Assembly: GCF_003335045.1 (NCBI RefSeq) | Contig: NZ_QOZG01000004.1 | Span: forward strand, 248,001 to 312,000 | Length of the DNA: 64,000 bases | Source: Paramesorhizobium salinisoli | GTDB lineage: Bacteria > Pseudomonadota > Alphaproteobacteria > Rhizobiales > Rhizobiaceae | Direction of reading: 5' to 3' | Translations under genes and position numbers: made by a program | Shown: in pieces, positions 5,743-43,380 of the stretch | Layout of the letters: each line of letters starts with the position of its first letter | Numbering within the stretch: the stretch's first letter is position 1 | The notes under the pieces: generated by a model | What the model was told of the DNA's origin: nothing | The model's input: the letters and a program-made list of their open reading frames with translations, nothing else | Database searches by the model: none

Positions 5743-5964
5743 TCAAGCTGATCGCCGTCGAATGCTGGAGAATCCACGGTCGGTTGCAATAAACCGTTCT
5801 AACATCGGGACTACCAGACGAATTGGATCGGTGGCTGGTTCGCCCTGTTCCCTGCCAAGAGCTTCAGCATAGGCGCGCAGGTCGCGGTGCAGCGCCGCAG
5901 GCAGCTCCAGAGTGACTTTCACAGGCCTATCATCGACGATTGGGCCGAGCTTCAGCTTCGCCAT
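5743..5964 (-). CDS. DUF2274 family protein
   Basis: A 73-residue protein (MAKLKLGPIVDDRPVKVTLE) of the DUF2274 family, commonly the last gene of trb operons in alphaproteobacterial ICEs. The motif VTLELPAALHRDLRAYAEAL resembles a ribbon-helix-helix strand plus helix, so a DNA-binding or plasmid-stability role is possible. Its ATG overlaps the trbI stop (TGATG), so it is translationally coupled. Exact function unknown. Confidence 0.8.
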   Translation of the reverse strand: MAKLKLGPIVDDRPVKVTLELPAALHRDLRAYAEALGREQGEPATDPIRLVVPMLERFIATDRGFSSIRRRSA

Positions 5965-7190: not shown

Positions 7191-8236
7191 GACGCCGGCC
7201 TCCCGTCGGTGCGCACGATGCGGACGCGCTTCTGGCGATCGCCGGAGCCGTACCGCAGCTCGGCGGCGGCGAAGAGCCGGTCGACGATCATGTGATGGCC
7301 GCGCACCCGGTAGTTCACCAATTCCGACGTATTGCCCTCCGGGCCGACGACGAATAGCGGCGGCATTTCGCCCTGGCCGATTCCACGCGGGAATTCGATG
7401 AAGACCTGTCGGCCGTCGTCGAAGGCGCGCAGTGGCCGCCACGGCGCGCGGTCGCCATCGATCGCGTAGCGGAAGTTGACGTTGGCGAGGTCGAGGCCAG
7501 ATGCGACCGGCTGCGCGGCCTCGGCCTGTTGGTTCTGGCGGCGCAGCGCGATGAGCTGATCTTGAGGATACTGCCAGGAGACCGAGGCCATATAGGTCCG
7601 CTCGGTCGAGCGCAGCTCCATGTGATAGGTGCGCAGGTTTGTGTTGATGACGAGGTTGGTCATCAGATCCGGCCGGGTCGGCTTCACCAGGATGTGGACC
7701 TGCAGCGTCGGCCCGGCGCCGCTCTGCGTGTCGCCAATGATCCAGCGCACTGTGTCGCCGGCGGCGACCGGACCCGATCCGACCAACTGCTCTCCGGGCT
7801 GCAACGCGATGTCCGTGATCTGCCCGACGGCGGTGTAGACTTGATAGAGCGCACCTTGCGTGAAGGGGTAGACCTGCATCGAGTTGATGAAGCCGTTGCG
7901 CACCGGCTGTATGCGCGCAGCGGCGTTGGCCTGGTTGACCCGGGCGGTCGGATCGGTCGGCTCCGGGGTGGTTCGAGACGGTTCGACTCGTTGCATCTGC
8001 CCGGGCAGCGGAAGCGGTCGCGGAATTTCGACCACGGTGACCGGCGCCGGTGGATCGACGGTCTGCACAGCCGGCGCGGCAGCATCGTAGGAGATTTCGG
8101 GCGGCGGCGTGTTGGTGGCGCAGCCGGCGAGCGCGGACGTTGCGAGCAGCAGAAGCGGCAATGCGCCTGGGCGCAAAGCCGGAACTGCGGAAATGTGTGA
8201 AGCCGGGTTTCCGGCTTTACGGAAAGACGGCTTCAT
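7187..8236 (-). CDS. trbG: TrbG, VirB9-like outer-membrane lipoprotein
   Basis: A 349-residue VirB9/TrbG homologue, part of the outer-membrane core of the conjugation channel. The N-terminus has a lipoprotein signal with a lipobox (LATSALAGC, about residues 32-40), followed by a proline-rich region and the VirB9 domain (NSMQVYPFTQGALYQVYT to YRVRGHHMIVDRLFAAAELRYG). ATG 8236 overlaps the trbF stop (ATGA). The first 20 residues are encoded by a palindromic repeat also found inside the strawberry-notch gene (see 8187-8226), so the N-terminus has been extended or altered by that element. Confidence 0.95.
   Translation of the reverse strand: MKPSFRKAGNPASHISAVPALRPGALPLLLLATSALAGCATNTPPPEISYDAAAPAVQTVDPPAPVTVVEIPRPLPLPGQMQRVEPSRTTPEPTDPTARVNQANAAARIQPVRNGFINSMQVYPFTQGALYQVYTAVGQITDIALQPGEQLVGSGPVAAGDTVRWIIGDTQSGAGPTLQVHILVKPTRPDLMTNLVINTNLRTYHMELRSTERTYMASVSWQYPQDQLIALRRQNQQAEAAQPVASGLDLANVNFRYAIDGDRAPWRPLRAFDDGRQVFIEFPRGIGQGEMPPLFVVGPEGNTSELVNYRVRGHHMIVDRLFAAAELRYGSGDRQKRVRIVRTDGRPAS
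8187..8226. repeat. Palindromic repeat element, copy inside trbG
   Basis: A 40-bp element (GCGGAAA ... GTGAAGCCGG, loop, CGGCTTT, ACGGAAA) whose centre forms a hairpin (AAGCCGG / CCGGCTT). On the coding strand it gives the peptide FRKAGNPAS. A near copy lies at 52386-52426 in the same reading frame (FRKAASPAS); most differences are in the loop. Confidence 0.65.
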
Positions 8237-8916
8237 TGACCAAGCTCCCGTGACCAGTTGATGGCGTTGACGTAGATGCCGAGCGGGTTCGCCCTGAGCC
8301 GATCGGCGTTGCGCGGGACCTGCACGACGATCGTCAGGATCGCGGTCCAGCGTTCGGTCGTAGCGAGCTGGCCGTTCTCGTAGCGGCGCTCGACCCAGGC
8401 CACACGGAAGCTGTCGGGGGACGCGCGGATAACGCTGGAGACCTCGACCGCGATCTGCTGGCGGCCGACCTTGGTGAACGGGTCGTTGGCCCGCGCATAA
8501 TCGTTGAGCGCTGCCGCGCCGCGATCGGTCGTGAAGTCGTAGGCGCGCAGCCAGTTCTGCCGCACGATGATGGCGTCGGCCGGGATCGAGCGGACCTGCT
8601 CGATGAATCGTGCCAGGTGGAAGGCGATTTGGGGGTCGGTCGGGCGATAGTCGGCAACAGCCGGCGCCACGGCCTGCGCCTGACCGAGCCGGTCGACCTG
8701 CACCACCCAGGGCACGATCGTGCCGCGCGCCGATTGCCAGACCAGCGCGGCGGCGAAGCCGGTGGAGAGGATCAGCGAACCAAAGGCCATCAGCCGCCAG
8801 TTCCTCGCTTGGACGCGCGAGGCGCCGATGCGCTCGTCCCAGACCTGCGCGGCGCGCTGGTAGGGCGTCTCGGGTTCGGGGGCTTTGCCATAGTGGGTAG
8901 AGGGTCGTTTGAACAT
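8233..8916 (-). CDS. trbF: TrbF, VirB8-like inner-membrane channel protein
   Basis: A 227-residue TrbF/VirB8 homologue. A cytoplasmic N-terminus with YGKAPEPETPYQRAAQVWDE is followed by one transmembrane helix (about residues 43-62) and a periplasmic NTF2-like domain ending AWVERRYENGQLATTERW and NPLGIYVNAINWSREL, all typical. VirB8-like proteins form part of the inner-membrane assembly platform. Its ATG overlaps the trbL stop by one base (TGATG). Confidence 0.95.
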   Translation of the reverse strand: MFKRPSTHYGKAPEPETPYQRAAQVWDERIGASRVQARNWRLMAFGSLILSTGFAAALVWQSARGTIVPWVVQVDRLGQAQAVAPAVADYRPTDPQIAFHLARFIEQVRSIPADAIIVRQNWLRAYDFTTDRGAAALNDYARANDPFTKVGRQQIAVEVSSVIRASPDSFRVAWVERRYENGQLATTERWTAILTIVVQVPRNADRLRANPLGIYVNAINWSRELGQ

Positions 8917-10280
8917 CAGCGGTCGCCTTCGGAGAGATTGACGGAGGAGCCGCCGCCATGGGCGTCACCGGAACGCACGGCGTGGGCGGTCGCCTGGACG
9001 GCGTGGGTCATGCGTTGGGAGCGGCGCATGCGCTGCGCCCATGCGGGCGGTCCGCCGGCGGTTGCCGGTGCGGCCGAGCCGCTGCTGTCGCCCGCTGCAT
9101 CGCCACCGACCGATCCCATCGTCGAGGAGCCGCCAGTGGCTTCGAACGCAGCCTTGCCGCCGGCGTTGAAGCTGGAGCGCATGCTCTCGGCGGCGCGTGA
9201 GGCGGCGCGGCGCAGCGGTGAGACAGCGGCGCTGCCTGCGGCCCGGGCAACACCGCCGAGACCTGACGCGACGCCACTGGCGCCTGATTGGCCGGCCGCG
9301 CCGAGGCTGTAGGCCGTGGATGCGCCGCCCGCCATCGCCGCGCCGCCCCGGGCCGCGGCTGCCGCGCCTCCGGCAAGCGCCGCGCCACCGGAGGCAACGG
9401 CGCCGACCGCGCCGGCTCCGGCTGCGATCATGCCGCCGGCGGCGAGGCCTGTGCCCACCGCCGCGCCGGCGCTGAGCTGCGGACCGCCAGAGACGATGCC
9501 GCTGGCGATGCCGGGACCGAAGATGCCGAGGCCGAGGAGCGACAGCGCGGCGAGCACGATGGCCATGGCTTCGTCGATGGACGGAGTCGCGCCACCAAAG
9601 CCGGCGGTGAATTCGGAGAACAGCGTCGAGCCGATGCCGATGATGACGGCGAGCACCAGCACCTTGATGCCGGACGAGATGACGTTGCCGAGCACCCGTT
9701 CGGCCATGAAGGCCGACTTGCCGAACAGGCCAAACGGGATGAGGACGAAGCCGGCCAGCGTTGTCAGCTTAAATTCAATGAGCGTGACGAAGAGCTGGAT
9801 GGCGAGGATGAAGAAGGCGAGCAACACCAGCGCCCAGGCCAGGAACATGCAGGCGATTTGGATGAAGTTCTCGAAGAACGACCAGTAGCCCATTAGGCCT
9901 GAGATGGATTCCAGAAGCGGACGTCCGGCGTCGAGGCCAGTCTGAGCCACCTTGCCAGGCCGCAGCAGATCGGCGGTCGTAAAGCCCGTGCCGCTGGCCT
10001 TGAGGCCCAAGCCGGCGAAGCTCTCGAAGACGATGCGCGCGAGGTTGTTCCAGTTGCCGATGATGTAGGCGAACACCCCGACGAACAGCGTCTTCTTCAC
10101 GAGCCGGGCGAAGATGTCGTCATCGCCGCCCCAGGACCAGAAGAGCGCCGCCAGCGTCACGTCGATCACGATCAGGGTCGTGGCGATGAACGCGACTTCG
10201 CCGCTCAGCAGGCCAAAGCCGGAATCGATGTAACGGGTGAAGACTTCGAGAAAGTGGTCGATGACGCCGGTGTTGCCCAT
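8916..10280 (-). CDS. trbL: TrbL, VirB6-like polytopic membrane protein
   Basis: A 454-residue VirB6/TrbL homologue with a short N-terminus (MGNTGVIDHFLEVFTRYI) and about five to six transmembrane segments in the first 300 residues. A glycine/alanine-rich and then serine/glycine-rich C-terminal tail follows, usual for TrbL. It forms the inner-membrane passage for DNA. The ATG at 10280 is chosen by alignment with known starts; the 94 extra upstream residues in the open frame are low-complexity arginine-rich shadow sequence. Confidence 0.94.
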   Translation of the reverse strand: MGNTGVIDHFLEVFTRYIDSGFGLLSGEVAFIATTLIVIDVTLAALFWSWGGDDDIFARLVKKTLFVGVFAYIIGNWNNLARIVFESFAGLGLKASGTGFTTADLLRPGKVAQTGLDAGRPLLESISGLMGYWSFFENFIQIACMFLAWALVLLAFFILAIQLFVTLIEFKLTTLAGFVLIPFGLFGKSAFMAERVLGNVISSGIKVLVLAVIIGIGSTLFSEFTAGFGGATPSIDEAMAIVLAALSLLGLGIFGPGIASGIVSGGPQLSAGAAVGTGLAAGGMIAAGAGAVGAVASGGAALAGGAAAAARGGAAMAGGASTAYSLGAAGQSGASGVASGLGGVARAAGSAAVSPLRRAASRAAESMRSSFNAGGKAAFEATGGSSTMGSVGGDAAGDSSGSAAPATAGGPPAWAQRMRRSQRMTHAVQATAHAVRSGDAHGGGSSVNLSEGDR

Positions 10281-10284
10281 GACG

Positions 10285-10647
10285 CTACCGAGTCTCGGCC
10301 GACGGCGACACCAGCGCCGGATGGGTCGGCATGGCCGGGTCCGCTTGCGGATGGGGAGCCGGCGCCGCTTCCGGCAGCCTCTCTGCCGGTCGAGCGCCCG
10401 GCGCAAGGAAGCGGTGGCGGTTTTCCGCCCAGGCCCGCAGGCAGGCAGGATCACGCGGCCCGGCTTCGCCGAGGGCCTGGCAGCGGAATAACTCATCGCG
10501 CAACGGGTCGGACGGAGCCGTGTTCGGTCGTGACGAAGCCCAGCTCTCCGCCTGCTCCTCATCCCGGCTTAACTCGATCGCCGTCGCGGTGACGGCCACC
10601 GCGACGAACACCACCGCGCCAAGTCGGGCGAGCATCTTGCCGTCCAT
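10285..10647 (-). CDS. TrbK-alt, putative entry exclusion protein
   Basis: A 120-residue small membrane protein: one N-terminal transmembrane helix (LARLGAVVFVAVAVTATAIEL), then a soluble part with DELFRCQALGEAGPRDPACLRAWAENRHRF, which is the signature of the TrbK-alt family found between trbJ and trbL. TrbK proteins block entry of a second copy of the same element. Start ATG 10647. Position and motif support the call; exclusion activity is inferred from the family. Confidence 0.85.
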   Translation of the reverse strand: MDGKMLARLGAVVFVAVAVTATAIELSRDEEQAESWASSRPNTAPSDPLRDELFRCQALGEAGPRDPACLRAWAENRHRFLAPGARPAERLPEAAPAPHPQADPAMPTHPALVSPSAETR

Positions 10648-10657
10648 CGCCGCGCCC

Positions 10658-11425
10658 TCAGTTGCCGCTGTTCGGGAACATGCGGGCGTTGCCCGCTTGG
10701 TAGCCGGAACCCGGCGTGAGGAAGCGGCGGCGCTGCTCACGGCCCTGTTCGGCGGCCGCTGCGCGCTCTGCCTCTGAGAGCGACTGTGCGCGACCGTTGG
10801 CAGCGACGACGGCCGTGAGATCGGCGAGCTGCTGCGCCTGCAGCGCGAGGAGCTGATTACCGGCTTGCGTCGCCTGCAGCGCGCCGGTCGCTCCTTGGCT
10901 GCGGCCGATCAGTGACGACATCTCGGACCGGTTGGTGTCGATATTGCCGACGACACCGGCCTGCACGCGCATGGCATCTTGCAAGCCGCCGACGGTATTC
11001 TGCCAGCGTTCCCGGGCGCCAGCGACGAGTTGCTGATCGGACGCCGACATCGAGGCGTTGCCGTAGGTGGTCTGGAACGCCTGATCGATGTTCTGGACAT
11101 CGTAGGCGATGCGCTGAGCCTGCTGCAGCAGTTGCTGGGTGCGTTGCACGGACTGCTGAAGTTGTTGGATCGAGGAGTACGGCAGGCTCGCGAGATTACG
11201 AGCCTGGTTGATGAGCATCGTCGCCTCGTTCTGAAGCGAACTGATCTGGTTGTTGATCTGCTCCAGCGACCTGGCCGCCTGAAGCACGTTCTGCACGTAG
11301 TTCGTCGGATCCTTCACGATCAACTGCGCCGCCGCTGGTGGCGCCCAGAAGATCGGTGACAATGCGGTGGAAGCGGTGAGCAGCGCGGCGGCAAGGCGCA
11401 CGCCGCGCGAACGACGCGGGGTCAT
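10658..11425 (-). CDS. trbJ: TrbJ, VirB5-like pilus-associated protein
   Basis: A 255-residue TrbJ homologue with a cleavable signal peptide (about residues 1-33, ending PPAAAQ), followed by a long glutamine-rich helical region (LEQINNQISSLQNEATMLIN and repeated QQLLQQAQ) likely to form coiled coils. VirB5/TrbJ proteins sit at the pilus tip and help contact the recipient. The start overlaps the trbE stop (ATGA). Confidence 0.94.
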   Translation of the reverse strand: MTPRRSRGVRLAAALLTASTALSPIFWAPPAAAQLIVKDPTNYVQNVLQAARSLEQINNQISSLQNEATMLINQARNLASLPYSSIQQLQQSVQRTQQLLQQAQRIAYDVQNIDQAFQTTYGNASMSASDQQLVAGARERWQNTVGGLQDAMRVQAGVVGNIDTNRSEMSSLIGRSQGATGALQATQAGNQLLALQAQQLADLTAVVAANGRAQSLSEAERAAAAEQGREQRRRFLTPGSGYQAGNARMFPNSGN

Positions 11426-13860
11426 GAGGACATCTCCATGTTGTTGAGGTTGGGGATGAGATCGGCGGCCCAGTCGAGGCCGCGCTGGCGCAACCAGGCC
11501 GCCAGGAAATCTTCGCGCCCGTGAGCTGCGATAGTCTGCGCGATGGCGGCCTGATCGGTCTTTGAGGATGTTGCACAGATGGCCAGCGCCACATCCGACA
11601 GGCCAAGCTCGAACAGGCGATTGCCGCGCCGTGACTGGCAGTAGTAGTCGCGCTTAGGCATCGCCCGCGCCAGGATCTCGATCTGGCGATCGTTCAACCC
11701 GAAGCGGCGATAGATCGTGGTGATCTGTGGCTCGATCGCGCGCTCGTTCGGCAGCAGAATGCGGGTCTGGCAGCTCTCGATGATGGCGGGCGCGATGGCG
11801 GAGCCGTCGATGTCGGAGAGCGACTGCGTGGCAAAGATGACGCTGGCGTTTTTCTTGCGCAGCGTCTTCAGCCATTCGCGAAGCTGACCCGCGAAGCCCT
11901 CGTCATCGAGGGCGAGCCAACCTTCGTCAACAATCAGCATCGTCGGCCGGCCGTCGAGACGATCCTCGATACGATGGAAGAGATAGGCGAGTACCGCAGC
12001 CGCGGCGCCCGTGCCGATCAGTCCTTCGGTCTCGAACGCCTGTACCGACGCCTGGCCAAGATATTCGGCTTCGGCGTCGAGCAGGCGCCCATAGGGGCCG
12101 CCGACGCAGTAGGGCCGAAGCGCCTGCTTGAGATCATTGGACTGTAGCAGGACCGATAGGCCCGTCAGTGTGCGCTCGCCGATCGGCGCGGAGGCGAGCG
12201 ACGAGAGCGCCGACCAGAGATGCTCCTTGACCTCGGGCGTGATCGAAACGCTCTCGCGTCCCAGAATGGCAGTGAGCCAGTCAGCCGCCCAGGCCCGTTC
12301 GGCGACGTCGTCGATGCGTGCCAGCGGCTGCAGCGACACGCTGTCCTCGGCGCCATCGGTGAGTCCGCCGCCGAGGTCGTGCCAGTCGCCACCCATGGCC
12401 AACGCCGCGGCCCGTATTGAGCCACCGAAATCGAAGGCGAACACTTGGGACCGCTCGTAGCGGCGGAACTGTAACGCCATCAGCGCGAGCAGCACCGACT
12501 TGCCGGCGCCGGTCGGTCCGACCATCAGTGTGTGACCTACGTCGCCAACATGGATGGAAAGCCGGAACGGGGTAGAGCCTTCGGTCTTGCCGAACAGCAG
12601 TGGGGGTGCTGCGAAGTGCTCGTCCCGTTCCGGTCCCGCCCATACCGCCGATAACGGGATCATGTGGGCGAGATTGAGCGTGTTGATGGGCGGCTGCCGC
12701 ACATTGGCATAGGCGTGGCCGGGCAGGCTGCCGAGCCAGGCGTCGACGGCGTTGATGGTCTCGGGCATTGCGGTGAAATCGCGGCCCTGGATGACCTTCT
12801 CGACGAGGCGCAGCTTCTCAGCCGCGATGCGCGGATCGTCGTCCCAGACGGTGATCGTTGCCGTCACATAAGCCTGGCCGGCATAGTCGGCGCCAAGCTC
12901 CTGCAACGCCATGTCGGCATCGGCCGCCTTGTTTGCCGCGTCGGTGTCGACCAGCGCTGAAGCCTCGTTGGTCATCACCTCTTTCAGGATGGCTGCAATC
13001 GACTTGCGCTTGGCGAACCATTGCCGCCGGATCTTGGTCAGCAGCTTGGTGGCGTCGGTCTTGTCGAGGAGGACAGCCCTGGTCGACCAGCGATAGGGAA
13101 AGGCGAGCCGGTTCAACTCGTCGAGGATGCCGGGCGTGGTCGCGGTCGGGAAGCCGACAATGGTGAGGATGCGCAGATGCGTTTCGCCAAGGCGAGGCTC
13201 TAGCCCGCCGGTGAGCGGCTGATCGGCCAGCAGTGCATCGAGATAGATCGGCGTCTCGGGCACCCGGACGCGGTGGCGTTTCGTCGAGACCGTCGAATGC
13301 AGGAAGGTCAGTGTCTCGGCGTCATCGAGCCAGGCGCATTCCGGCATGAAGGCGTCGATGAGCTGGAGGATGCGATCAGTGCGATCGGTGAAGCCGCGCA
13401 GGACTTCGTGGGCATCGACGCCGGTGTGGTCGCGGCCCTCATAGAGCCAGGTCTCGGCGCGGGCGGCATCTTCGGCTGGGGGCAGATAGAGAAAGGTCAG
13501 GAAGTAGCTCGACTCGAAATGCGCGCCGGCTTCCTCGAAATCCGCTTTGCGTTCGGCGTCGACCAGCGCGGACGCGCTGTCGGCGAACATGCTGGCGGGA
13601 TAGGTCGCGGCGCCGTGTCGCTGCGCCTCGACGAAGATCGCCCAGCCGGAGCCGAGGCGGCGGAAGGCGTTGTTGAGCCGTCCGGCGACCGCGATCAGCT
13701 CGGCCGGCACGGCGCTGTCGAGATCGGGACCGCGAAATCGGGCGGTGCGTTGCAGGCTCCCATCCTTGTTGAGGACAACGCCTTCCCCCACCAGCGCGAC
13801 CCAGGGGAGGAAGTCGGCGAGCCGGGTGTTGCGGTTGCGATATTCGGCAAGGTTCATCAT
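11422..13860 (-). CDS. trbE: TrbE, VirB4-like type IV secretion ATPase
   Basis: An 812-residue VirB4/TrbE ATPase. The Walker A motif GPTGAGKS lies near residue 450, and a Walker B-type stretch MLIVDEGWLALDDEGF is near residue 645. The N-terminus (NLAEYRNRNTRLADFLPW) is the usual TrbE start. This ATPase powers pilus assembly and substrate transfer at the inner membrane. Two adjacent ATG codons (13860, 13857) are possible starts. Confidence 0.96.
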   Translation of the reverse strand: MMNLAEYRNRNTRLADFLPWVALVGEGVVLNKDGSLQRTARFRGPDLDSAVPAELIAVAGRLNNAFRRLGSGWAIFVEAQRHGAATYPASMFADSASALVDAERKADFEEAGAHFESSYFLTFLYLPPAEDAARAETWLYEGRDHTGVDAHEVLRGFTDRTDRILQLIDAFMPECAWLDDAETLTFLHSTVSTKRHRVRVPETPIYLDALLADQPLTGGLEPRLGETHLRILTIVGFPTATTPGILDELNRLAFPYRWSTRAVLLDKTDATKLLTKIRRQWFAKRKSIAAILKEVMTNEASALVDTDAANKAADADMALQELGADYAGQAYVTATITVWDDDPRIAAEKLRLVEKVIQGRDFTAMPETINAVDAWLGSLPGHAYANVRQPPINTLNLAHMIPLSAVWAGPERDEHFAAPPLLFGKTEGSTPFRLSIHVGDVGHTLMVGPTGAGKSVLLALMALQFRRYERSQVFAFDFGGSIRAAALAMGGDWHDLGGGLTDGAEDSVSLQPLARIDDVAERAWAADWLTAILGRESVSITPEVKEHLWSALSSLASAPIGERTLTGLSVLLQSNDLKQALRPYCVGGPYGRLLDAEAEYLGQASVQAFETEGLIGTGAAAAVLAYLFHRIEDRLDGRPTMLIVDEGWLALDDEGFAGQLREWLKTLRKKNASVIFATQSLSDIDGSAIAPAIIESCQTRILLPNERAIEPQITTIYRRFGLNDRQIEILARAMPKRDYYCQSRRGNRLFELGLSDVALAICATSSKTDQAAIAQTIAAHGREDFLAAWLRQRGLDWAADLIPNLNNMEMSS

Positions 13861-13872
13861 GGCCGCGCGCCC

Positions 13873-14154
13873 TCAAACCGACAGATGACCGGGGATGCGC
13901 AGATGCCGGCGCACCACATCGACGAACTGCGGGTCGCGCTTGGCGGCCCAGACGGCGGCGAAGTGTCCGATCGCCCAGAGGCCAATTCCAACCAGCCAGA
14001 GGCGAAGGCCGAGCCCGAGCGCCGCCGCCAGCGTCCCATTCAGGATGGCGATCGAGCGAGGCGCGCCGCCGAGCAGGATGTGCTCGGTCAGCGCGCGATG
14101 GACGGGGACCGAAAAGCCCGGCACTTCGCTCGCCGTCTCGGCCGACGTCGCCAT
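13873..14154 (-). CDS. trbD: TrbD, VirB3-like membrane protein
   Basis: A 93-residue VirB3/TrbD protein. After the N-terminal GFSVPVHRALTEHILLGGAPR motif there is a hydrophobic double segment (about residues 34-70), and the C-terminus has AAKRDPQFVDVVRRHL, a family hallmark. It works with VirB4 at the inner membrane. The ATG overlaps the trbC stop (TGATG). Confidence 0.94.
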   Translation of the reverse strand: MATSAETASEVPGFSVPVHRALTEHILLGGAPRSIAILNGTLAAALGLGLRLWLVGIGLWAIGHFAAVWAAKRDPQFVDVVRRHLRIPGHLSV

Positions 14155-14486
14155 CAGACTAGCGCTCCGCCGCCGAACGAGAAGAACGACAGGAAGAAGC
14201 TGGACGCGGCGAACGCGATCGACAGGCCGAAGACGATCTGGATCAGGCGCCGGAAGCCGCCCGAAGTGTCGCCGAAGGCGAGCGTCAGGCCCGTCACGAT
14301 GATGATGATCACCGCGACGATCTTGGCGACAGGGCCCTCGATGGATTCGAGTATGGACTGCAGCGGCGCTTCCCACGGCATGGACGACCCGGACGCGTGG
14401 GCCGCGGGCGCGAGCGCCAAGGTGAGGAAGGTGATGGAGGCCGCTGTCGCTACGTGACGGCGGATACGCATGGCATGCTGGATCAT
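14154..14486 (-). CDS. trbC: TrbC, VirB2-like pilin
   Basis: A 110-residue propilin: signal peptide (about residues 1-31, ending AAHASG), then a short loop and two hydrophobic helices (IVAVIIIIVTGLTLAFGD and IVFGLSIAFAASSFFLSFF). This is the arrangement of VirB2/TrbC, which in RP4 is cyclised by the TraF peptidase; a TraF-like gene is present at 38427. The start at 14486 overlaps trbB by four bases; a second ATG five codons in (14471) is possible. Confidence 0.93.
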   Translation of the reverse strand: MIQHAMRIRRHVATAASITFLTLALAPAAHASGSSMPWEAPLQSILESIEGPVAKIVAVIIIIVTGLTLAFGDTSGGFRRLIQIVFGLSIAFAASSFFLSFFSFGGGALV

Positions 14487-15466
14487 GACGGATCTCCTGT
14501 GAGGTGCTGGCTGGCGGGGATGACGCGGTAATCGCCGTCGGGGCCGAGCCCTTCGACGCGAGCGAGTTCGGCGAGCCGGCGCGAGGCGCCGCGGCCGGAG
14601 AGCACCGCAACCAAATCGATCGTCTCGGCGATCAGGGCGCGGGGAACGGTGACGACAGCTTCCTGGATGAGCTGCTCGAGGCGGCGGAGCGCGCCGATGG
14701 CGGTGCCCGCATGGATGGTCCCGATGCCGCCGGGGTGGCCGGTGCCCCAGGCCTTGAGCAGATCGAGCGCCTCAGCGCCTCGCACCTCGCCGATCGGGAT
14801 GCGATCGGGGCGCAGACGCAGCGAGGATCGGACGAGATCGGAGAGCGAGGCGACGCCGTCCTTCGTGCGCATGGCGACGAGGTTCGGCGCGGCGCATTGG
14901 AGCTCGCGCGTGTCCTCGATCAGCACCACGCGGTCGGCGGTCTTCGACACCTCGGCGAGCAGCGCGTTGGTGAGCGTGGTCTTGCCGGTCGAGGTGCCGC
15001 CGGCGACCAGGATATTGCGACGCTCGGCGACGGCGATGCGCAACGCCTCGGCCTGATCGCCGGACATGACGCCGGTCCACACATAGTCGTCGAGCGTGAA
15101 CACGGCGACCGCAGGCTTGCGGATGGCGAACGCCGGCGCGGCCACCACTGGCGGCAGAAGGCCCTCGAACCGCTCTCCTGTTTCCGGCAACTCGGCAGAG
15201 ACGCGGGGGCTGCCTGGATGAACCTCGGCGCCGACATGGTGCGCCACGAGGCGGACGATGCGTTCGCCATCGGCCGGCGACATCCTCTCACCCGTGTCGG
15301 ACAGTCCCTCGGACAGGCGGTCGATCCAGAGCCGCCCATCGGGGTTGAGCATCACCTCGACGATCGCGGGATCTTCCAGAAATTGGGCGATCGCCGGCCC
15401 GAGGGCCGTACGCAGCATGCGTGCGCCGCGAAGGATTGCCTCCGATTTCTGGTGAGTGGCCGCCAC
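14483..15466 (-). CDS. trbB: TrbB, VirB11-like secretion ATPase
   Basis: A 327-residue VirB11/TrbB hexameric ATPase. Walker [10 protein letters not shown] is near residue 155, an Asp box [12 protein letters not shown] and Walker B-like [17 protein letters not shown] follow, then the His box [12 protein letters not shown]. It starts the minus-strand trb operon. The start is a GTG at 15466 with GGGGA six bases upstream. In related elements the gene before trbB is usually the ribbon-helix-helix gene next to traG; here 17 kb of cargo separates them. Confidence 0.95.
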
Positions 15467-28155: not shown

Positions 28156-28185
28156 GGGCGTTTCCTTTTCAGAAAAATGGCTGGT

Positions 28186-31780: not shown

Positions 31781-31783
31781 GGC

Positions 31784-32236: not shown

Positions 32237-32248
32237 GAATGCTTCTCC

Positions 32249-32677: not shown

Positions 32678-32825
32678 TGTATCGCCTCCTTAGTCAGGCG
32701 ATACGATAGTTATGCCCGTGGAAACGATCTATGCTCGGAAATCCGTGATATCTTTTCGATCGTCCGGCATTGATGTTTGATATCTTCGATGGATGCGCTC
32801 GCTATTATAGCCGTGTTGGCGGAAA

Positions 32826-33270: not shown

Positions 33271-35256
33271 CTAAAGCTCGATGCCGTCGCCCGGGTCGAG
33301 CGAAGCCTGGCGCGCGACCTGCCGCATGTTCTGGTTCATGCGACTGAGGCGCGCGGCGTCGTCATCGGCATCGTCCGCCGGGTCGATCTCGAACTCATTC
33401 TCGATCGGCGCCACCTTAGCGATCGGCTGCACGCGGCTCAGCTCGGGCTGGCGGCGGCGCTCGGAATCCGTTGTGTCCTCCTCGTCCGGATTGGCTTCCC
33501 TCGCAGCTCTCACGATCTCCGGCGACGCCGGTAACGCCAGCTTGCTCCAGTCGTCGGTCGAGACCCCATCCGGCTTGGTGATCGCGGGCGGCTGCAGAAC
33601 TCGTTCCTGAAACCGGCGATCTTCGTAATAGCGCGCCTTCTTGGCACGGATCGGCGGGGTGCCGGCGACCATGACGATTTCGTCGGAGGGCGGAAGCTGC
33701 ATGATCTCGCCGGGCGTGAGTAACTGCCTGGCGGTTTCCGACCGCGACACCATCATGTGCCCGAGCCATGGCGAAAGCCGATGGCCGGCATAGTTCTTCA
33801 TCGCCCGCATCTCGGTTGCGGTGCCGAGCGCGTCCGACACGCGCTTGGCGGTTCGCTCGTCATTGGTCGCGAAGCTGACGCGGACATGGCAGTTATCGAG
33901 GATCGAATTGTTGGGCCCGTAGGCCTTTTCAATCTGGTTGAGCGACTGGGCGATCAGGAAACTCTTCAGGCCGTAGCCCGCCATGAACGCGAGCGCGGAC
34001 TCGAAGAAATCGAGCCGTCCCAGCGCCGGGAACTCGTCCAGCATGAGGAGCAGCCGGTGGCGACCGCCCTTGGCCTGCAGATCCTCGGTAAGACGCCGGC
34101 CGACCTGATTGAGGATCAGGCGGATCAGCGGCTTGGTCCGGTTGATGTCCGAGGGCGGCACCACGAGGTAAAGCGTCGACGGCCGCTTGCCGCCGACGAT
34201 ATCGGCGATCCGCCAGTCGCAGCGCCTTGTCACTTCGGCGACGACGGGATCGCGATAGAGGCCTAGGAACGACATGGCGGTCGAGAGCACGCCGCTGCGC
34301 TCATTGTCCGATTTGTTCAGCAGCTCGCGCGCTGCGCTGGCGATGACGGGGTGGGGACCGGTTTCGCCAAGGTGCGCGGTCTTCATCATGGCGGCCAGCG
34401 TCGATTCGATCGGCCGCTTCGGATCAGAGAGGAAGGCGGCAACGCCGGCGAGCGTCTTGTCGGCTTCCGCATAGAGGACATGGAGGATCGCGCCGACCAG
34501 TAGCGCGTGACTGGTCTTTTCCCAGTGATTGCGCTTCTCGAGCGATCCTTCCGGATCGACCAGGATGTCGGCGATGTTCTGGACGTCGCGGACCTCCCAC
34601 TCGCCACGGCGCACCTCGAGCAGCGGATTGTAACCGGCCGACTTCGGATTGGTCGGATCGAACAGCAGGACGCGGCCATGCCGCGATCGGAAGCCCGCGG
34701 TCAGCGTCCAGTTCTCGCCCTTGATGTCATGCACGATCGCCGAGCCTGGCCAGGTCAGGAGCGAAGGCACGACGAGCCCCACGCCCTTGCCGGAGCGGGT
34801 CGGCGCGAAGCACAGCACATGCTCCGGGCCGTCATGGCGAAGATAGTCGCGGTCGAGCTTGCCGAGGATCACGCCGTCGGGACCGAGCAGGCCGGCGGCC
34901 TTTACTTCCTCATCCCGAGCCCAGCGTGCCGAACCATAGGTCTCGACGTTCTTCGCTTCACGTGCCCGCCAAACGGACATGCCGATCGCCACGGCGATCG
35001 AGATGAAGCCGCCGGACGCCGCGATATAGGCGCCCTCCACGAAGATCGGCGGCGCATAGGCATCGTAAAAGTACCACCACCAGAAGAAGGCCGGCGGATA
35101 ATAGATCGGCCAGCCCGCAAGCTCGAACCAGGGCGGGCCGAGCTGGGGCTGGAAGCCGAGCCGATAGGCCGTCCACTCTGTCGCCGCCCAGGTCGTGAAG
35201 AGCACGATCATGAAGACGGTGAGGATCTGGCCCCAGAGGATTTTGGTCGCCGACAT
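33271..35256 (-). CDS. traG: TraG/VirD4-type coupling protein
   Basis: A 661-residue conjugation coupling ATPase. Two N-terminal transmembrane segments (about residues 10-30 and 75-98), then the ATPase domain with Walker A PTRSGKGVGLVVPSL near residue 152 and Walker B-type LLLMLDEFPALGRLDFFE near residue 410. It brings the relaxase-DNA complex to the Trb channel. It lies 25 bases downstream of the relaxase gene. Confidence 0.96.
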   Translation of the reverse strand: MSATKILWGQILTVFMIVLFTTWAATEWTAYRLGFQPQLGPPWFELAGWPIYYPPAFFWWWYFYDAYAPPIFVEGAYIAASGGFISIAVAIGMSVWRAREAKNVETYGSARWARDEEVKAAGLLGPDGVILGKLDRDYLRHDGPEHVLCFAPTRSGKGVGLVVPSLLTWPGSAIVHDIKGENWTLTAGFRSRHGRVLLFDPTNPKSAGYNPLLEVRRGEWEVRDVQNIADILVDPEGSLEKRNHWEKTSHALLVGAILHVLYAEADKTLAGVAAFLSDPKRPIESTLAAMMKTAHLGETGPHPVIASAARELLNKSDNERSGVLSTAMSFLGLYRDPVVAEVTRRCDWRIADIVGGKRPSTLYLVVPPSDINRTKPLIRLILNQVGRRLTEDLQAKGGRHRLLLMLDEFPALGRLDFFESALAFMAGYGLKSFLIAQSLNQIEKAYGPNNSILDNCHVRVSFATNDERTAKRVSDALGTATEMRAMKNYAGHRLSPWLGHMMVSRSETARQLLTPGEIMQLPPSDEIVMVAGTPPIRAKKARYYEDRRFQERVLQPPAITKPDGVSTDDWSKLALPASPEIVRAAREANPDEEDTTDSERRRQPELSRVQPIAKVAPIENEFEIDPADDADDDAARLSRMNQNMRQVARQASLDPGDGIEL

Positions 35257-35281: not shown

Positions 35282-37021
35282 CTACAGGCCGAGGCCGCGT
35301 TTGCGGCCAAAACTCCAGTCGACCCCGCCATCGCCGCGGGCGACGCCGGAGACTTGCTGGCCAAGGTGCTTTTCGAGAGAGGGCGACCAGGGCACGAGTT
35401 GGAAGCCGAGGCCGTCGTCGATCATCGCGAAGCGGCCCGACGCGAGGGCGATGCGCTGCCGATAGGCGCCAGCGACATATTCCCCGGACCCCGCCTTTGC
35501 GAACGGGCGCCCGGTCTCGGCCGCGAGCTTCGCCCCGAGCGCATCGACCTCGCGCTGACGCAGCGTGTCGATGAGGTTGCGGGAGAAGATGACGCTGCGG
35601 CCGTGGCGTTCGGCCAGGCGCTGCTCGATCAGATGTTCGGCGCGGCGGTCCATCGCGTCCCGCACCTCGACGCCGAAGCCGCCACCGCCAAGCGCCACCG
35701 GCTCGCGGGCGATCGCCTGCCGATCGAGCCAGGTCGCGCCGGTCGCGGTGACCTGGGCAGAGATGTCGAGATCCGAGCGGACGGCAAGCGCAACGCGCCG
35801 CTGCCCTCGCGCATCGTCGAACTTGCGCAATTCGACGATCGAACCCGGCGCGCTGTCGCCGGCGGCCTCGAGGTCGGGCAGCTTGATGTGGTGGGTGCGG
35901 CCGTCGACCCCGTCGACCACGGCATAGGCCGTGCCCTTGAGCTCGTCGTCGAGGCCTCGCGTCACCAGCCGGCCGACAATGGGATCGTTCAGGCTTTCCC
36001 CGGCGAGCACATAGCTCGCCGCGCCGCGCTCGATGCCGCGGTCGGTCAGCGCGCGATGCATCCGCTTGATGATATCGCCGCGCTCGCCAAGTTCGCGCAG
36101 CGTCGCCTCCGCCTTCTCCGAGATCGTCCATTGGCCGGGACCGATTTCGTTGGCGAGGCCGAGCCCTTCGAGCTTGCGCAGCCGCCCGACCTTCAGCGTG
36201 TGGAATTCATCCGGCTGCCGGTCCGAATGCGGCGCGAGATCGACGACGCCGGTCCTGTAGGCGTCGCGCGCGAACTGGCGGTCGAGATTGGTCCAGCGCT
36301 CGGACTCGACCTGGCGCTCAATGGTCCGGCGGATTTCCTGATCGGTGCGCGGTCCCAGCTCCTGGGTGATGAGATCGCGCGCCCGGTCGCGCATGCCCTC
36401 CTTGATGTAGTCGCGCGAGATGACGAGGTTCTCGCCGTCGTCGCGCACGCCGCGCACGATCAGATGGACATGGGGATGCTCGGTATTCCAGTGATCGACG
36501 GCGACCCAGTCGAGGCGGGTAGCCAGATCCTTCTCCATCTGCCCGACCAGCTCGCGGGTGAAGCCCTTGAGGTCGGCCATCTCGACCGCGTCGTCGGGCG
36601 ACACGATGAAACGGAAATGATGGCGGTCATCCTCGCACCGCTCCACGAAAGCTTTCGGATCGGCGTCATCCCCGCCGGGGCCGAACAGCCGGGCCTTCTC
36701 TCCATCCCGGGTCACGCCCTCGCGGCGGAGATAATTGAGGTGGGTGCCGAGGGGCGCGTTTCGTCCGCCCTGGCGCACGACGCGGGCCTTGATGACGGCG
36801 CCACGCGAACGGGCGGTCAGCAGCCGGTTGGCCTGCACCGCCGCGCGCTGGCCGCGGCCGAAGCGTGAGCGGTTGCCAGGACCGATCCTTCCTTGCCGGG
36901 AGACCGCGCCGCCGGCCTTCTGCGCGGCGGCGAGCGCCTGCGCGATGAAGGGTCTGGCCTGCTGCGCGCGTGTCGAACGGATGCGACCTGGACGGATACG
37001 GAAATCGTCCTCGGCGCTCAT
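35282..37021 (-). CDS. VirD2-type relaxase with DUF3363 domain
   Basis: A 579-residue relaxase. The N-terminal nuclease half has the HxHxxV motif in NTEHPHVHLIVRGVRDDGE (metal-binding site) and an upstream region GRNAPLGTHLNYLRREGV likely to hold the catalytic Tyr; the second half is the DUF3363 region found in ICE relaxases. It would nick oriT at 37171-37177 just upstream of its own gene and stay bound to the 5' end. ATG 37021 (MSAEDDFRIRPGRIR) is chosen over one at 37039. Confidence 0.93.
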   Translation of the reverse strand: MSAEDDFRIRPGRIRSTRAQQARPFIAQALAAAQKAGGAVSRQGRIGPGNRSRFGRGQRAAVQANRLLTARSRGAVIKARVVRQGGRNAPLGTHLNYLRREGVTRDGEKARLFGPGGDDADPKAFVERCEDDRHHFRFIVSPDDAVEMADLKGFTRELVGQMEKDLATRLDWVAVDHWNTEHPHVHLIVRGVRDDGENLVISRDYIKEGMRDRARDLITQELGPRTDQEIRRTIERQVESERWTNLDRQFARDAYRTGVVDLAPHSDRQPDEFHTLKVGRLRKLEGLGLANEIGPGQWTISEKAEATLRELGERGDIIKRMHRALTDRGIERGAASYVLAGESLNDPIVGRLVTRGLDDELKGTAYAVVDGVDGRTHHIKLPDLEAAGDSAPGSIVELRKFDDARGQRRVALAVRSDLDISAQVTATGATWLDRQAIAREPVALGGGGFGVEVRDAMDRRAEHLIEQRLAERHGRSVIFSRNLIDTLRQREVDALGAKLAAETGRPFAKAGSGEYVAGAYRQRIALASGRFAMIDDGLGFQLVPWSPSLEKHLGQQVSGVARGDGGVDWSFGRKRGLGL

Positions 37022-37135
37022 GGGCATGGCCCCGCACATCGCGCAAAGCCGAGGAAATCATTGGGAAAGCGCCGCGAGCGCAGGCTGCGCCGATCAGGCG
37101 CACCTCGCGCAAACGCGCCATAAACCCTTGAAAAA

Positions 37136-39487: not shown

Positions 39488-39738
39488 TGGGCGTCTCCTG
39501 GGGCTGGTGGGAATTCGCGCTCGAACAGTGCGCGGAGCATGTCGGCGACCGTCTGGCCGCGCTGGAAGGCCGCGATCTTGATCCGACCTCGCATGTCGGC
39601 GGTGACGTCGATGGTCAGCCTGGCCGAGAAGTCGTCGGGGGGTTGAGCGCGCTGGGTCTGGCGATCAGGCGCCTTGATCCAGCTCTCGGGATCACCGGGC
39701 CGGGATGCGAAGCCGCGCTTGGGGAACCGTGCGCTCAT
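39484..39738 (-). CDS. Small ribbon-helix-helix protein, ParA partner candidate
   Basis: An 84-residue protein with a disordered N-terminus and the ribbon-helix-helix segment ARLTIDVTADMRGRIKIAAFQRGQTVADMLRALFEREF. It is coupled to parA by an ATGA overlap. Small RHH proteins next to ParA often act as the centromere-binding partner, which is the inferred role. ATG 39738 is chosen; the frame is open for 19 more codons upstream. Confidence 0.82.
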   Translation of the reverse strand: MSARFPKRGFASRPGDPESWIKAPDRQTQRAQPPDDFSARLTIDVTADMRGRIKIAAFQRGQTVADMLRALFEREFPPAPGDAQ

Positions 39739-40373
39739 GCGCCGATCCTCGTCACCTCGGTCGCGAGCGCGGCGATCTCGCGCGCGCCTGGACAATCTTC
39801 GTCCTGCTCGGCGGCGATCCGTCCGGTCTGCATGACATCGGCAAAGACGATGCGCTGGCCGATGGTCGTCGCGAGCAATGGCGGGTCGTGATCGGCCAGC
39901 GTCTCAGCGGTTTCGCGGGCGAGCACCGTGCGGGCCGCGCAGCGGTTCAGCACGAAGCGGGCGGCAAGCTGCGGCCGGTAGATGCGCGCTTCGCCCAGCA
40001 GCGCCAGCATCTCGGCCGAGGCCCAGCCATCGAGCGGCGACGGTTGCACCGGGATCAGCACCAGGTCGGCGGCGAGCAGCGCCGAGCGCATGAGGCTGGC
40101 GACGCGTGGCGGTCCATCAATGACGACATGGTCGGCGTCACGCGCCAGCTCCGGCGCTTCGCGATGCAGGGTGTCGCGCGCCAAGCCGACGACACCGAAC
40201 AGCCGCTGCAATCCCTCCCGGCTGCGTTGCTGCGACCAGTCCAGAGCCGAGCCCTGGGGATCGGCGTCGATCAGGGTGACGCGCTTGCCGTCGCGGGCCC
40301 ATTCGCCAGCGAGATGCAGCGCCAGCGTCGTCTTGCCGACGCCGCCCTTCTGGTTGAGCAGCGCGACGATCAT
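39735..40373 (-). CDS. parA: ParA-family partition ATPase
   Basis: A 212-residue ParA/MinD-type ATPase. The deviant Walker A KGGVGKTTLALHLAGEWA is at residues 9-26, DADPQGSALDWSQ follows, and VVIDGPPRVASL is the Walker B region. It would keep the excised or replicating form of the element segregated. It lies 137 bases downstream of the iteron-like repeats. Confidence 0.94.
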   Translation of the reverse strand: MIVALLNQKGGVGKTTLALHLAGEWARDGKRVTLIDADPQGSALDWSQQRSREGLQRLFGVVGLARDTLHREAPELARDADHVVIDGPPRVASLMRSALLAADLVLIPVQPSPLDGWASAEMLALLGEARIYRPQLAARFVLNRCAARTVLARETAETLADHDPPLLATTIGQRIVFADVMQTGRIAAEQDEDCPGAREIAALATEVTRIGA

Positions 40374-40581: not shown

Positions 40582-41469
40582 TCACAGCTTATCCCCAGTG
40601 CGAGTTGTCGAGCGGCGACGGCGGCGCGGGATGCCGAGCGCGTTGGGATCGGTGGGTGCGAAGGACAGGATTTCCGGCCCACCGAGGCATTGCTCGATGG
40701 TGAGGCGGTAGCCGGGCAGCGGCTGGCGGCGGACGATGTCGCGCAGGTCGTAGGCGAAGTGCTTGAGCGGCGAGAGGCTGCCGGACTTGGCGTGGAGATG
40801 CGGAAAGTCGAAGCTCCAGCCGAACTCCTGTCTACCGCCGTGTTTGCGCACCAAACGGTAGAGCCAGCGCTCCAACCCGCCAGTGAGATCGAAGTATTTG
40901 CGGTCGATCGTCAGCACGAGCGCGTCGTCGAGGACAGCGCCGTAGAACCAGTCGGGGACGATCAGCTCGAGGCCGAGCGGGCGGCCGCGGTGATCGGCGC
41001 GCTCCTTCCATTCGTTGATCCAGGAGAAACGGTGCATCCGCCGCTCGGTCGGCTGGCGGATCGAGGTCGCCACCGTCGTCGATTGCAGCCGGTCGAGCGC
41101 GGCCTTCAGGCGGTCGTAGTCGCGTAAGCTGACGCCGCGGCCGATGAAGTTCAGGATTTCATAGGGGGTGGTCGCCATCAGGCGCGACGGCCGCAAGCCG
41201 ACATCGCGCGCTTCGACGATCTGGGAGGCGGCCCAGATGAGGACATCGGCATCCCAGATCGTGGCCATGCCATGTTCGGGGACGGCTTCGACGCGGATCT
41301 TCACCGAGCCCGCCTTGAAGTCGATCGGCGCCAGGCGCTTCGACTTGGCGAGCGAGAAGAACGGATAGGCCATCAGGTCTTGCGCATCGCGGGGCGCGAG
41401 ATCGCCGGGCAGCGCCCGGAACAGATCGAGCTGCGCGCGCTCATCGTGATGGTGGTGGCGAGACGACAC
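40582..41469 (-). CDS. repA: Replication initiator protein A (RPA family)
   Basis: A 295-residue RepA-type initiator: AQDLMAYPFFSLAKSKRL near the start, IWDADVLIWAASQI, TPYEILNFIGRGVS and GLERWLYRLVRKHGG. The basic C-terminus ends RRRRRSTTRTGDKL. It likely binds the iterons just past its gene. Presence on an ICE indicates that the excised circle can replicate. Confidence 0.92.
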   Translation of the reverse strand: MSSRHHHHDERAQLDLFRALPGDLAPRDAQDLMAYPFFSLAKSKRLAPIDFKAGSVKIRVEAVPEHGMATIWDADVLIWAASQIVEARDVGLRPSRLMATTPYEILNFIGRGVSLRDYDRLKAALDRLQSTTVATSIRQPTERRMHRFSWINEWKERADHRGRPLGLELIVPDWFYGAVLDDALVLTIDRKYFDLTGGLERWLYRLVRKHGGRQEFGWSFDFPHLHAKSGSLSPLKHFAYDLRDIVRRQPLPGYRLTIEQCLGGPEILSFAPTDPNALGIPRRRRRSTTRTGDKL

Positions 41470-41480: not shown

Positions 41481-41768
41481 TCAGCGCGCGAAGCGGCCGC
41501 CGGCGGTGGCGGAGGGTGCGGTGGTCTGGCGCTTGGCTGGCAGCACGGTCCCGCCGCGCGGATCGGAGGTCGAGGTGACAAGACCGCGATCCGCCCAGCT
41601 CTGCAGGTCCTCGACGGAATAGACGACGCGGCCACCGAGCTTGCGGTAGGTCGGGCCGGTTCCGTAGGTCCGGTGCTTCTCAAGGGTGCGCTCGGACAGG
41701 CCGAGAAAGCGCGCCGCTTCCTGAGTTCTCAGATAGCGCGGCGGTAAATTGGCGGCTTTTTCGGCCAT
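41481..41768 (-). CDS. AlpA-like helix-turn-helix protein
   Basis: A 95-residue protein with a MerR/AlpA-type winged helix: YLRTQEAARFLGLSERTLEKHRTYGTGPTYRKLGGRVVYSVEDLQSWAD. Such proteins act as excisionases or as small regulators; adjacency to repA (12 bases) suggests control of replication or excision. The tail after residue 66 is low-complexity. Confidence 0.87.
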   Translation of the reverse strand: MAEKAANLPPRYLRTQEAARFLGLSERTLEKHRTYGTGPTYRKLGGRVVYSVEDLQSWADRGLVTSTSDPRGGTVLPAKRQTTAPSATAGGRFAR

Positions 41769-41895
41769 GATCGAACCTCCGTGGTCTCGCGGGTGGCCGC
41801 TGCGAACAAGCGGCGGGTTGCGAGCACGGTGGCGCGAAGACGGCGCCTCGGACGATGTCGAAGTAAGGCGGCTAAGATCGACACGTCTGCGGGTG

Positions 41896-42066
41896 TCAGC
41901 GGTCGCGGCGTGGTCGGCGCAGCAATGTCCGATAGCCGCCGCGAACGAGCTTCATGCCGTCGCGGGCGAGACGGATGGTGATCTCCCGGATCGGGTCGCC
42001 GACCCAGGACGCTGCGTCAATTTTGTGCTGAGGGAAGAGATGCTCGGCGACGGTGCGGTAGATGGC
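41896..42066 (-). pseudogene. Detached C-terminal end of the FseA-like DUF2285 gene
   Basis: In the frame next to that of the gene upstream, this stretch encodes AIYRTVAEHLFPQHKIDAAS, then DPIREITIRLARDGMKLVRG and GYRTLLRR, which is the normal end of a DUF2285 domain. It follows Q-M-L-R of the upstream part after what looks like an out-of-frame deletion of roughly eight to ten codons at about 42066. It has no start of its own. Confidence 0.7.
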
Positions 42067-42635
42067 GCAGCATCTGGCGGGCGCGCTGACGTCTCTGTAG
42101 CGTCATGCGCGGATCGGGCGGCACACGCTTGCCGAACATTGCGTGCCAGAGGCGTTCAATCGCGGTCAGCCGGTCGGGCGTCAATTCGTCGAACATGACG
42201 AATGCGCCGAGGGGGCGGGCATCATCGACGTTGAACAGGGCCACGTCGTGGGGCTCGCCCCGGAGCGCGAGCCGGATCAGGCCAGGATCATGCTCGATGA
42301 TGGTGTGGGCGTGGAGATCCTCAGCGCGGAGGAGGAGATCTCCCGCCGGGCTGGGTCCGGCGGTTAACGGGAGCGTCGCCGGATCGGTTTGCGGGGTCCA
42401 GAAGATCGGCTGGATGAGCGCGGAGTTGCGAGGGTCGGCGACGAAATCGCAACCCCCATTGCTCTGCGAACTCGCGCGCAATGTCCTCGGTCAACCGCCC
42501 GATGGCTACCAGCTCCTGATATGATTTTCTGTACTCGGGATTGCGACGCAGGAACTCCCAGGCAAGATCGCCGGGGGTCAGTTTGTCGATATAGTCGTAG
42601 GCGGCTTCTGACCGCCATCTTTCATCTTCGGACAT
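42017..42635 (-). CDS. fseA: FseA-like excision activator made by +1 programmed frameshift
   Basis: Two overlapping frames make one protein of about 205 residues. The first (ATG 42635) encodes MSEDERWRSEAAYDYIDKL to EQWGLRF, a helical domain. At Phe 64 the codon is TTT followed by C; a +1 shift from TTT to TTC joins it to VADPRNSALIQPIFWTPQTD and the DUF2285 domain. In Mesorhizobium ICEMlSymR7A, FseA is made by exactly this UUU-to-UUC slippage and activates the excisionase gene. Without the shift a 104-residue product results. The DUF2285 end is cut short by a second, likely mutational frameshift (see 41896-42066), so the activator may be weakened. Confidence 0.78.
42443..42449 (-). promoter_or_regulatory. 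Programmed +1 ribosomal frameshift site
   Basis: On the minus strand the codons read TTG CGA TTT C. The rare CGA precedes TTT-C, where tRNA-Phe can slip from UUU to UUC. The conserved residues GLRF end the first frame and VADPRN start the second. Confidence 0.72.
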
Positions 42636-42753: not shown

Positions 42754-43017
42754 TCAGTGCAGGCGACCCTGAAGCAACTGACAGAAGCCGCTGGTGGTCA
42801 TCCATTTCGCGCGGTCTAGATGGCTGGTGTAGATGCGCAGGGCGCGCTCCGGATCGGCCTTGGCATCGAGGCCGAAGAGGACTTCGACGACTTCACGCCA
42901 GTCGGCGCTGGCCGCGTCGGCGTCGAGCAGCCGGGCATAGAGCTTCAGATGCGCCTCGTCATAGGCGGTCAATGCCGCCCCGGCCGGCGGCTCATCGAGA
43001 AAATCGTCTTTGGTCAC
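42754..43017 (-). CDS. Small DUF2285 protein, QseM-like antiactivator candidate
   Basis: An 87-residue protein starting at a GTG with a strong GGGGGA ribosome site (VTKDDFLDEPPAGAALTAYD). The core DEAHLKLYARLLDADAA and ADWREVVEVLFGLD, ending with SHLDRAKWMTTSGFCQLL, fits the DUF2285 helix-turn-helix variant. In ICEMlSymR7A the small DUF2285 protein QseM binds and blocks FseA and TraR. The neighbourhood (FseA-like gene downstream) supports the same role here; this is inference. Confidence 0.7.
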   Translation of the reverse strand: MTKDDFLDEPPAGAALTAYDEAHLKLYARLLDADAASADWREVVEVLFGLDAKADPERALRIYTSHLDRAKWMTTSGFCQLLQGRLH

Positions 43018-43137
43018 AATATCCCCCGGTCGCGAGATGTATCCAAACTGGAGGAGATTGTTAACCGTGATGCGATCGGAATGATGACGCAAGGCCTGGA
43101 CGCGAGAAGACGTGGCAACGCCGCGACCTGTCGAACG

Positions 43138-43380
43138 TCAGGTTTCCTTCTTTGCGTCAACGAGCAGCACTCCCTTGCCCTGATCGGAGTTCAGGAAGAC
43201 GATGCCGGCGCGTTCGAAAGCCCTTCTCACCTCGTCGCGCGTACTCTCGAAGACCTCGAGCCCGCTAGGGGATTCGAGGCGCTTGAGCGCGGTCAACGAG
43301 ACCCGGGCCTTGTCAGCGAGCGTCTCCTGTGTCCAACCCAGCAACGCCCGTGCGGCCCGAAATTGTTGGGCGGTGATCAT
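43138..43380 (-). CDS. Small XRE-family repressor
   Basis: An 80-residue single-domain HTH_XRE protein: ITAQQFRAARALLGWTQETLADKARVSLTALKRLES, ending GKGVLLVDAKKET. It may play the part of QseC, the repressor that controls qseM in related ICEs. A perfect palindrome lies 43 bases upstream of its start. Confidence 0.87.
   Translation of the reverse strand: MITAQQFRAARALLGWTQETLADKARVSLTALKRLESPSGLEVFESTRDEVRRAFERAGIVFLNSDQGKGVLLVDAKKET

Follow-up and report, generated by a model that had tools for sequence, protein, structure and literature searches.

Does the gene that lies in two reading frames on a chromosomal element of Paramesorhizobium salinisoli encode a working FseA, the activator of excision made by programmed ribosomal frameshifting (PRF), or has it been damaged? 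The DNA analysed (the window) is the 64 kb stretch C4:248001-312000 of contig C4 (NZ_QOZG01000004.1), taken from a 187-contig draft genome. The +1 slip that makes FseA in ICEMlSymR7A of Mesorhizobium consists of tRNA-Phe moving from UUU to UUC. As described for the known system, TraR drives fseA and a low-frequency +1 shift yields FseA, which binds its box and turns rdfS on, and QseM blocks FseA through the DUF6499 domain (PMC10359603, PMC11963761, PMC5882170). The +1 frameshift is reported to be needed by about 61% of 4709 FseA homologues (PMC10359603). The frames and junctions of the window gene, fseA, are as follows.

42321..42635, minus strand: ORF1, the DUF6499 (PF20109) half of fseA; residues 1-64 before the shift, then 40 frame-0 codons
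42443..42455, minus strand: +1 frameshift site GGG TTG CGA TTT C, with TGG before it; slip codon TTT at 42446-42444, extra base C at 42443
42017..42442, minus strand: ORF2 in the frame entered by the +1 shift, with the middle domain and the beginning of DUF2285; its final 15 codons and its stop (TGA 42019-42017) are out of frame, beyond a deletion
42065..42069, minus strand: deletion junction (26 nt lost), between 42069 and 42068; a common GCGC allows it to be placed up to 4 nt away
41896..42066, minus strand: DUF2285 remnant in the third frame, ending at TGA 41898-41896

From the ATG at 42635, ORF1 translates as MSEDERWRSEAAYDYIDKL...AEQWGLRF and then continues in frame 0 for 40 further codons to TGA 42323-42321. 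In a Pfam scan it matched PF20109 with 80.9 bits (cut-off 23.8), and the N-terminal DUF6499 of an FseA-type protein is thus present. ORF2 reads ...FVADPRN... in the +1 frame and gave a partial match to PF10074 (28.8 bits, cut-off 26.4) that keeps only positions 4-51 of the 107 in the profile; a complete C-terminal DUF2285 in the +1 frame is absent. The DUF6499 and DUF2285 frames connect solely through a +1 step at CGA TTT C (42446-42443) within the joint TGG GGG TTG CGA TTT C GTC, which places a TTT-C PRF site at the end of DUF6499. An RBS-like UGGGGG, a feature already described for FseA genes (PMC10359603), is present at WGL. The first-pass annotation had joined two ORFs at this point, and both frames and the joint were re-read as it claimed. 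It had also let the first frame end in WGLRF, which is indeed reached, but frame 0 does not stop there. The exact codon number of the fusion (206 with the stop), offered at the time as evidence, has no bearing, since a single +1 step between any two ORFs always leaves a whole number of codons.

An alignment of the N-terminal halves of 21 genes served as the query for relatives in named genomes, and the best 80 of 498 confirmed relatives were taken; these 80 loci were selected by the N-terminal half, none was dropped, and they overlap several of the 30 loci L005-L034. TTT stood at the end of the WG(L/M/V)xF motif in 80/80 (best 80 of 498), followed by C in 75 and by T in 5, and in every one of the 80 the +1 frame was open for 157-200 codons after the Phe codon, the value of 157 belonging to L057, where the contig ends. 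A GGYR-type C-terminal motif was unmatched in three of the 80, namely L057 (contig end), L108 (variant ending) and L113 (open for 191 codons). Another set of 24 loci, which overlaps the first and is made up of L005-L034 minus L005 (the window itself) and minus L010, L017, L018, L019, L023 and L025 (motif unmatched), plus L001, had TTT in 24/24, then C in 21 and T in 3, with a +1 frame of at least 187 codons in 23/24. The exception, L033, has a nonsense codon 60 codons past the shift and represents another damaged fseA copy.

Synonymous codons before the shift were strongly biased. Arginine was CGA in 51/54 against 11.5% in the rest of these genes, leucine was TTG or TTA in 66/78 (11.5% in the rest), and glycine was GGG in 66/80 (13% in the rest), while phenylalanine at other positions of these genes was TTT in 149/546. 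The Arg and Leu counts cover the rows having that residue (54 and 78 of 80), and all these codon counts come from related sequences and are not independent. The presence of TTT and an open +1 frame in all 80 relatives examined, together with this bias, gives good support to the reading of TTT-C as the inherited +1 programmed-frameshift site of an FseA-type gene rather than a sequencing error, as the first-pass annotation had argued. The site appears to be selected, its base bias exceeding what the protein sequence demands. Close relatives that carry the gene in a single frame and lack the T-run were sought, and none was seen among the 80 (best 80 of 498). Viral contigs yielded three weak loci, which were set aside, and plasmid records yielded 10 (distant) and 6 (near) matches.

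Two further observations were made on these loci. The unshifted frame stops 38-41 codons past the shift in 43 of the 80 relatives, which may reflect common descent or selection that keeps the unshifted product at one length; as this clustering was counted without control for relatedness, we make no claim of a conserved function for the frame-0 extension. At L010, on a small contig from the genus of the host, the fseA copy is damaged as well: the DUF2285 half is in frame and the N-terminal half is replaced by other sequence, which from its appearance may be an insertion element.

The window copy departs from its relatives beyond the shift. A family search of the window's genome returned DUF2285 in two pieces lying in different frames (window 42056-42193 and 41917-42066), and alignment with nine relatives (L006-L009 and L011-L015) showed that 26 nt are absent from the window fseA after 42069, inside DUF2285. 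The +1 frame is open through DUF2285 in all nine aligned relatives and the gap is found in the window alone. Because 26 cannot be divided by three, the shifted frame passes into 15 foreign codons and stops at 42017; it covers 141 codons after the Phe codon, where the 80 relatives (best 80 of 498) have 157-200. The predicted shifted product has 205 aa, consisting of 190 native and 15 foreign residues; DUF6499 and the middle domain are intact, and compared with the intact relative P0004 (254 aa) the C-terminal 64 residues are gone. Judged from the published domain map (PMC10359603) and the PF10074 profile match, the lost part would run from within the first DUF2285 helix, whose exact border is inferred, to the end of the protein, and would comprise most of the DNA-binding unit, DUF2285 being described as the DNA-binding domain of FseA (PMC10359603). 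The gene end at 42017 given in the first-pass annotation is thus a product of the deletion, beyond which DUF2285 goes on in the third frame to TGA 41898-41896. The first-pass identification of an FseA-like gene with a real frameshift site stands, but the proposal that this FseA drives excision is unsupported, since the second loss of frame removes most of the DNA-binding domain.

A 4-nt GCGC is common to the sequences after both ends of the missing stretch and resembles what slippage or a microhomology deletion would leave. Of the predicted remnant peptide, 55 residues are identical in L010, L042 and L046 (three of the nine loci checked), and a remnant so unchanged points to a recent deletion event. 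The junction was searched as a 30-base pattern with up to 3 mismatches in 394 genomes of the family, sampled evenly from a larger group; it occurred in one, the window's own, and in no other genome of the 394.

The gap might instead be a sequencing or assembly error, in which case the cell would carry an ordinary intact frameshifted FseA. The frame past the gap encodes a DUF2285 C-terminus identical in three of the nine loci checked, and this unchanged remnant fits both readings. The sequence around the gap is very GC-rich and partly repetitive, and the deletion is judged from the assembly of a 187-contig draft. Base-calling errors would not usually produce a clean loss of 26 nt with 4-nt common ends, however, which looks more like a true deletion, and the adjoining genes read well. 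We consider an error unlikely on this evidence, and the less likely of the two readings; the window fseA is most likely a recent loss-of-function allele, the deletion being presumably real in the cell.

The setting of the gene was examined with Pfam and by comparison with relatives, and the features that bear on its function are listed below.

43138..43380, minus strand: XRE-type HTH gene in the qseC position (PF01381; Pfam and relatives)
42754..43092, minus strand: QseM-like lone DUF2285 gene (PF10074 20.9 bits, under the cut-off of 26.4); start codon uncertain
41856..41883, no strand assigned: FseA-box-like inverted repeat TGTCGA-N16-TCGACA, upstream of rdfS; sole exact match in the 64 kb
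41481..41768, minus strand: rdfS-like HTH_17 gene (PF12728), intact (Pfam and relatives)
40582..41469, minus strand: repA (PF10134; Pfam), in the same position in 16/16 relatives (first 16 of the 80 loci)
39735..40373, minus strand: parA-type ATPase (Pfam)
35282..37039, minus strand: relaxase, rlxS type (PF03432, PF11843; Pfam)
33271..35256, minus strand: coupling protein traG (PF02534; Pfam)
5964..15466, minus strand: trb mating-pair genes; four ORFs scanned (TrbI, TrbL, a TrbE-like ATPase and a type II/IV secretion ATPase as TrbB)

On the upstream side of fseA lie the QseM-like lone DUF2285 gene and the XRE gene, and past rdfS follow, in order, repA, parA, DUF2840, signal peptidase, transglycosylase, relaxase and traG. 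The DUF2285 neighbour noted at first pass is therefore there, its profile score being the sub-threshold one given above, and the presence of a QseM-like lone-DUF2285 gene on the element is a further FseA-type feature, published for ICEMlSymR7A. Sixteen relatives (the first 16 of the 80) were compared for gene content: the rdfS-like protein was 79-94% identical over 86-95 aa in 16/16 and the QseM-like gene was 64-96% identical in 16/16; the XRE gene was matched in 16/16 as well, in L043 over 56 of 80 residues only, and all three genes, like repA, kept their positions in 16/16. Neither traR nor traI was recognised among the 45 other window ORFs that the Pfam scans covered. A tRNA-Leu(CAA) gene lies at C4:237885-237969, and 34 of 39 bases of an att repeat agree between C4:237918-237956, in tRNA-Leu, and C4:316923-316961 (top match, E = 0.002 in that comparison), the latter copy being adjoined by an integrase-family ORF at C4:315337-316812. 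Repeat and integrase delimit an element of about 79 kb within which the whole window falls, and the features of an rlxS/rdfS/trb-type integrative and conjugative element (ICE) are present: an integrase by the tRNA att repeat, a relaxase, a coupling protein and trb genes. Judged by sequence, the window gene is an fseA orthologue by descent on this ICE of about 79 kb in tRNA-Leu, and a complete DUF2285 is the one tested feature of a working FseA that it lacks.

The element also carries other genes. Adjacent ORFs at window 60139-63310 (minus strand) match PADLOC GajA (663.5 bits) and GajB (542.6 bits), and this Gabija-type pair is likely a phage-defence system carried as ICE cargo. Between trb and traG (window 15771-33260) lies catabolic-looking cargo that includes LysR, a dioxygenase, an aldo/keto reductase, an AraC-type regulator, molybdopterin and 2Fe-2S dehydrogenase subunits and cytochrome c.

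The published form of the FseA box is two inverted hexamers 15-16 bp apart (PMC10359603), and the repeat upstream of rdfS, judged by this form, is a putative binding site. With up to 2 mismatches allowed, the window-type box gave 3 matches in the window against 3.5 expected; as this is chance level, the assignment rests on the single exact match. Among the first 16 of the 80 relatives, 11 had the strict box pattern where it was expected, 7 of them with both exact hexamers and a spacer of 15 or 16; in the other five (L038, L044, L048, L049 and L050) it was not found there.

A second set of fseA, QseM-like, XRE and rdfS-like genes is present in the same genome at C1:678889-681000 (L001, L037). 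This fseA has a TTT-T shift site and an intact +1 frame of 197 codons. No window-type box was found at L037; upstream of this second rdfS type lies a palindrome, TGCCGC-N18-GCGGCA, conserved in seven aligned rows, with one base different in L146. These rows are fewer distinct loci, as L037 repeats L001, L142 repeats L034 and L143 repeats L031. The exact palindrome is absent from the window, where 1-2 mismatches gave 21 matches against 14.5 expected. Its occurrence also at L031 and L034, and at L146 with a single base difference, may mark a second type of FseA box. The second fseA could in principle act in trans on the window element; we think such rescue unlikely because the palindrome before its rdfS type differs from the window box.

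Taken together, we consider it highly probable that the window gene is the fseA of an alphaproteobacterial rlxS/rdfS/trb-type ICE of about 79 kb that keeps its +1 site and has recently been disrupted, leaving the element locked, by prediction, in tRNA-Leu. A slip from UUU to UUC at the retained TTT-C would place the ribosome in the frame of ORF2, and the 26-nt deletion in DUF2285 would then cost even the shifted ribosome its frame. The product would consist of DUF6499, the middle domain, part of the first DUF2285 helix and the 15 foreign residues. Lacking the helix-extended-turn-helix, it is predicted not to bind the intact FseA box, so that rdfS would stay off and the element would be held in tRNA-Leu unless another activator acts. 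The frameshift switch is probably dead in the window copy. Expression from PrdfS is described as negligible without FseA (PMC11963761), and in Azorhizobium the loss of the homologous unit is reported to cut transfer about 1000-fold, with neither half alone restoring it (PMC9601964).

The truncated product could also persist as a decoy whose DUF6499 binds QseM-type antiactivators without activating rdfS, thereby altering the control of other elements in the cell, such as the second FseA/QseM system. QseM is reported to bind the DUF6499 part of FseA (PMC10359603), DUF6499 and the middle domain are intact in the window product, and the second fseA has its own QseM-like gene; that system is, however, distant in sequence, and the allele is a single one in one genome, apparently recent and without sign of selection. 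The available text of PMC10359603 reports no bona fide DUF6499 without an adjoining DUF2285. We regard a decoy role as improbable. It is more improbable still that the 206-codon fusion ending at 42017 is a complete and functional FseA, as first proposed: the frameshift site is real, but the product ends in 15 foreign residues and lacks the last 64 residues of the 254-aa relative, and all 80 relatives examined (best 80 of 498) have a longer shifted frame. A second programmed +1 shift, rejoining DUF2285 near 42069, was rejected as the least probable reading, although another +1 step does reach the remnant frame: TTT-C is absent at the junction, the rejoined protein would be some nine residues short, and the junction occurs in one of the 394 genomes searched, the window's own.

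The disrupted fseA was likened to Msi172-Msi171, the FseA of ICEMlSymR7A from Mesorhizobium japonicum, by published descriptions. Both have DUF6499 followed by DUF2285 in two frames with a +1 shift after DUF6499, and the two systems have in common the UGGGGG at WGL, an inverted repeat of FseA-box form (two inverted hexamers with a 16-bp spacer), and QseM-like, XRE, rdfS, relaxase and trb genes on one element. Unlike ICEMlSymR7A, the window copy has the 26-nt deletion in DUF2285, its element lies in tRNA-Leu, and traR/traI were unseen in the scanned ORFs. The rihF1b/rihF1a genes of ICEAc from Azorhizobium caulinodans are likewise adjacent half-genes, both of which are needed for transfer, but differ from the window fseA in that the frameshift is absent according to the authors (PMC9601964). 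Locus L153, from the genus of Azorhizobium oxalatiphilum, carries an fseA-like gene in which TTT-C is present and the +1 frame is open for 190 codons; if its genome is that of A. caulinodans ORS571, which is a guess, this would counter the statement of an absent frameshift in the available text of PMC9601964. A sequence search of solved structures (PDB) with P0004 gave nothing significant, the best match being 6xz5 (E = 0.21). This is RovC of Yersinia, a named relative of the PF10074 domain, which regulates a type VI secretion system and is called distantly related in PMC10359603.

That FseA is made by frameshifting is already known, and damaged ICE regulators have been published too, those of ICESym being described as often duplicated, pseudogenised and rearranged (PMC8627217). 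Titles and abstract openings of the literature searched held no mention of the ICE of the window or of a comparably broken fseA. These results add the disrupted allele, the corrected gene end and, perhaps, the codon bias. The results support the frameshift as inherited control in this ICE lineage, and the UUR CGA bias before the slip site offers a concrete target for mutation. They also indicate that two-frame genes can hide true inactivation, the first change of frame here being programmed and the second looking like damage. The locus would also provide a natural test of whether the loss of FseA locks an otherwise complete-looking ICE in its chromosome.
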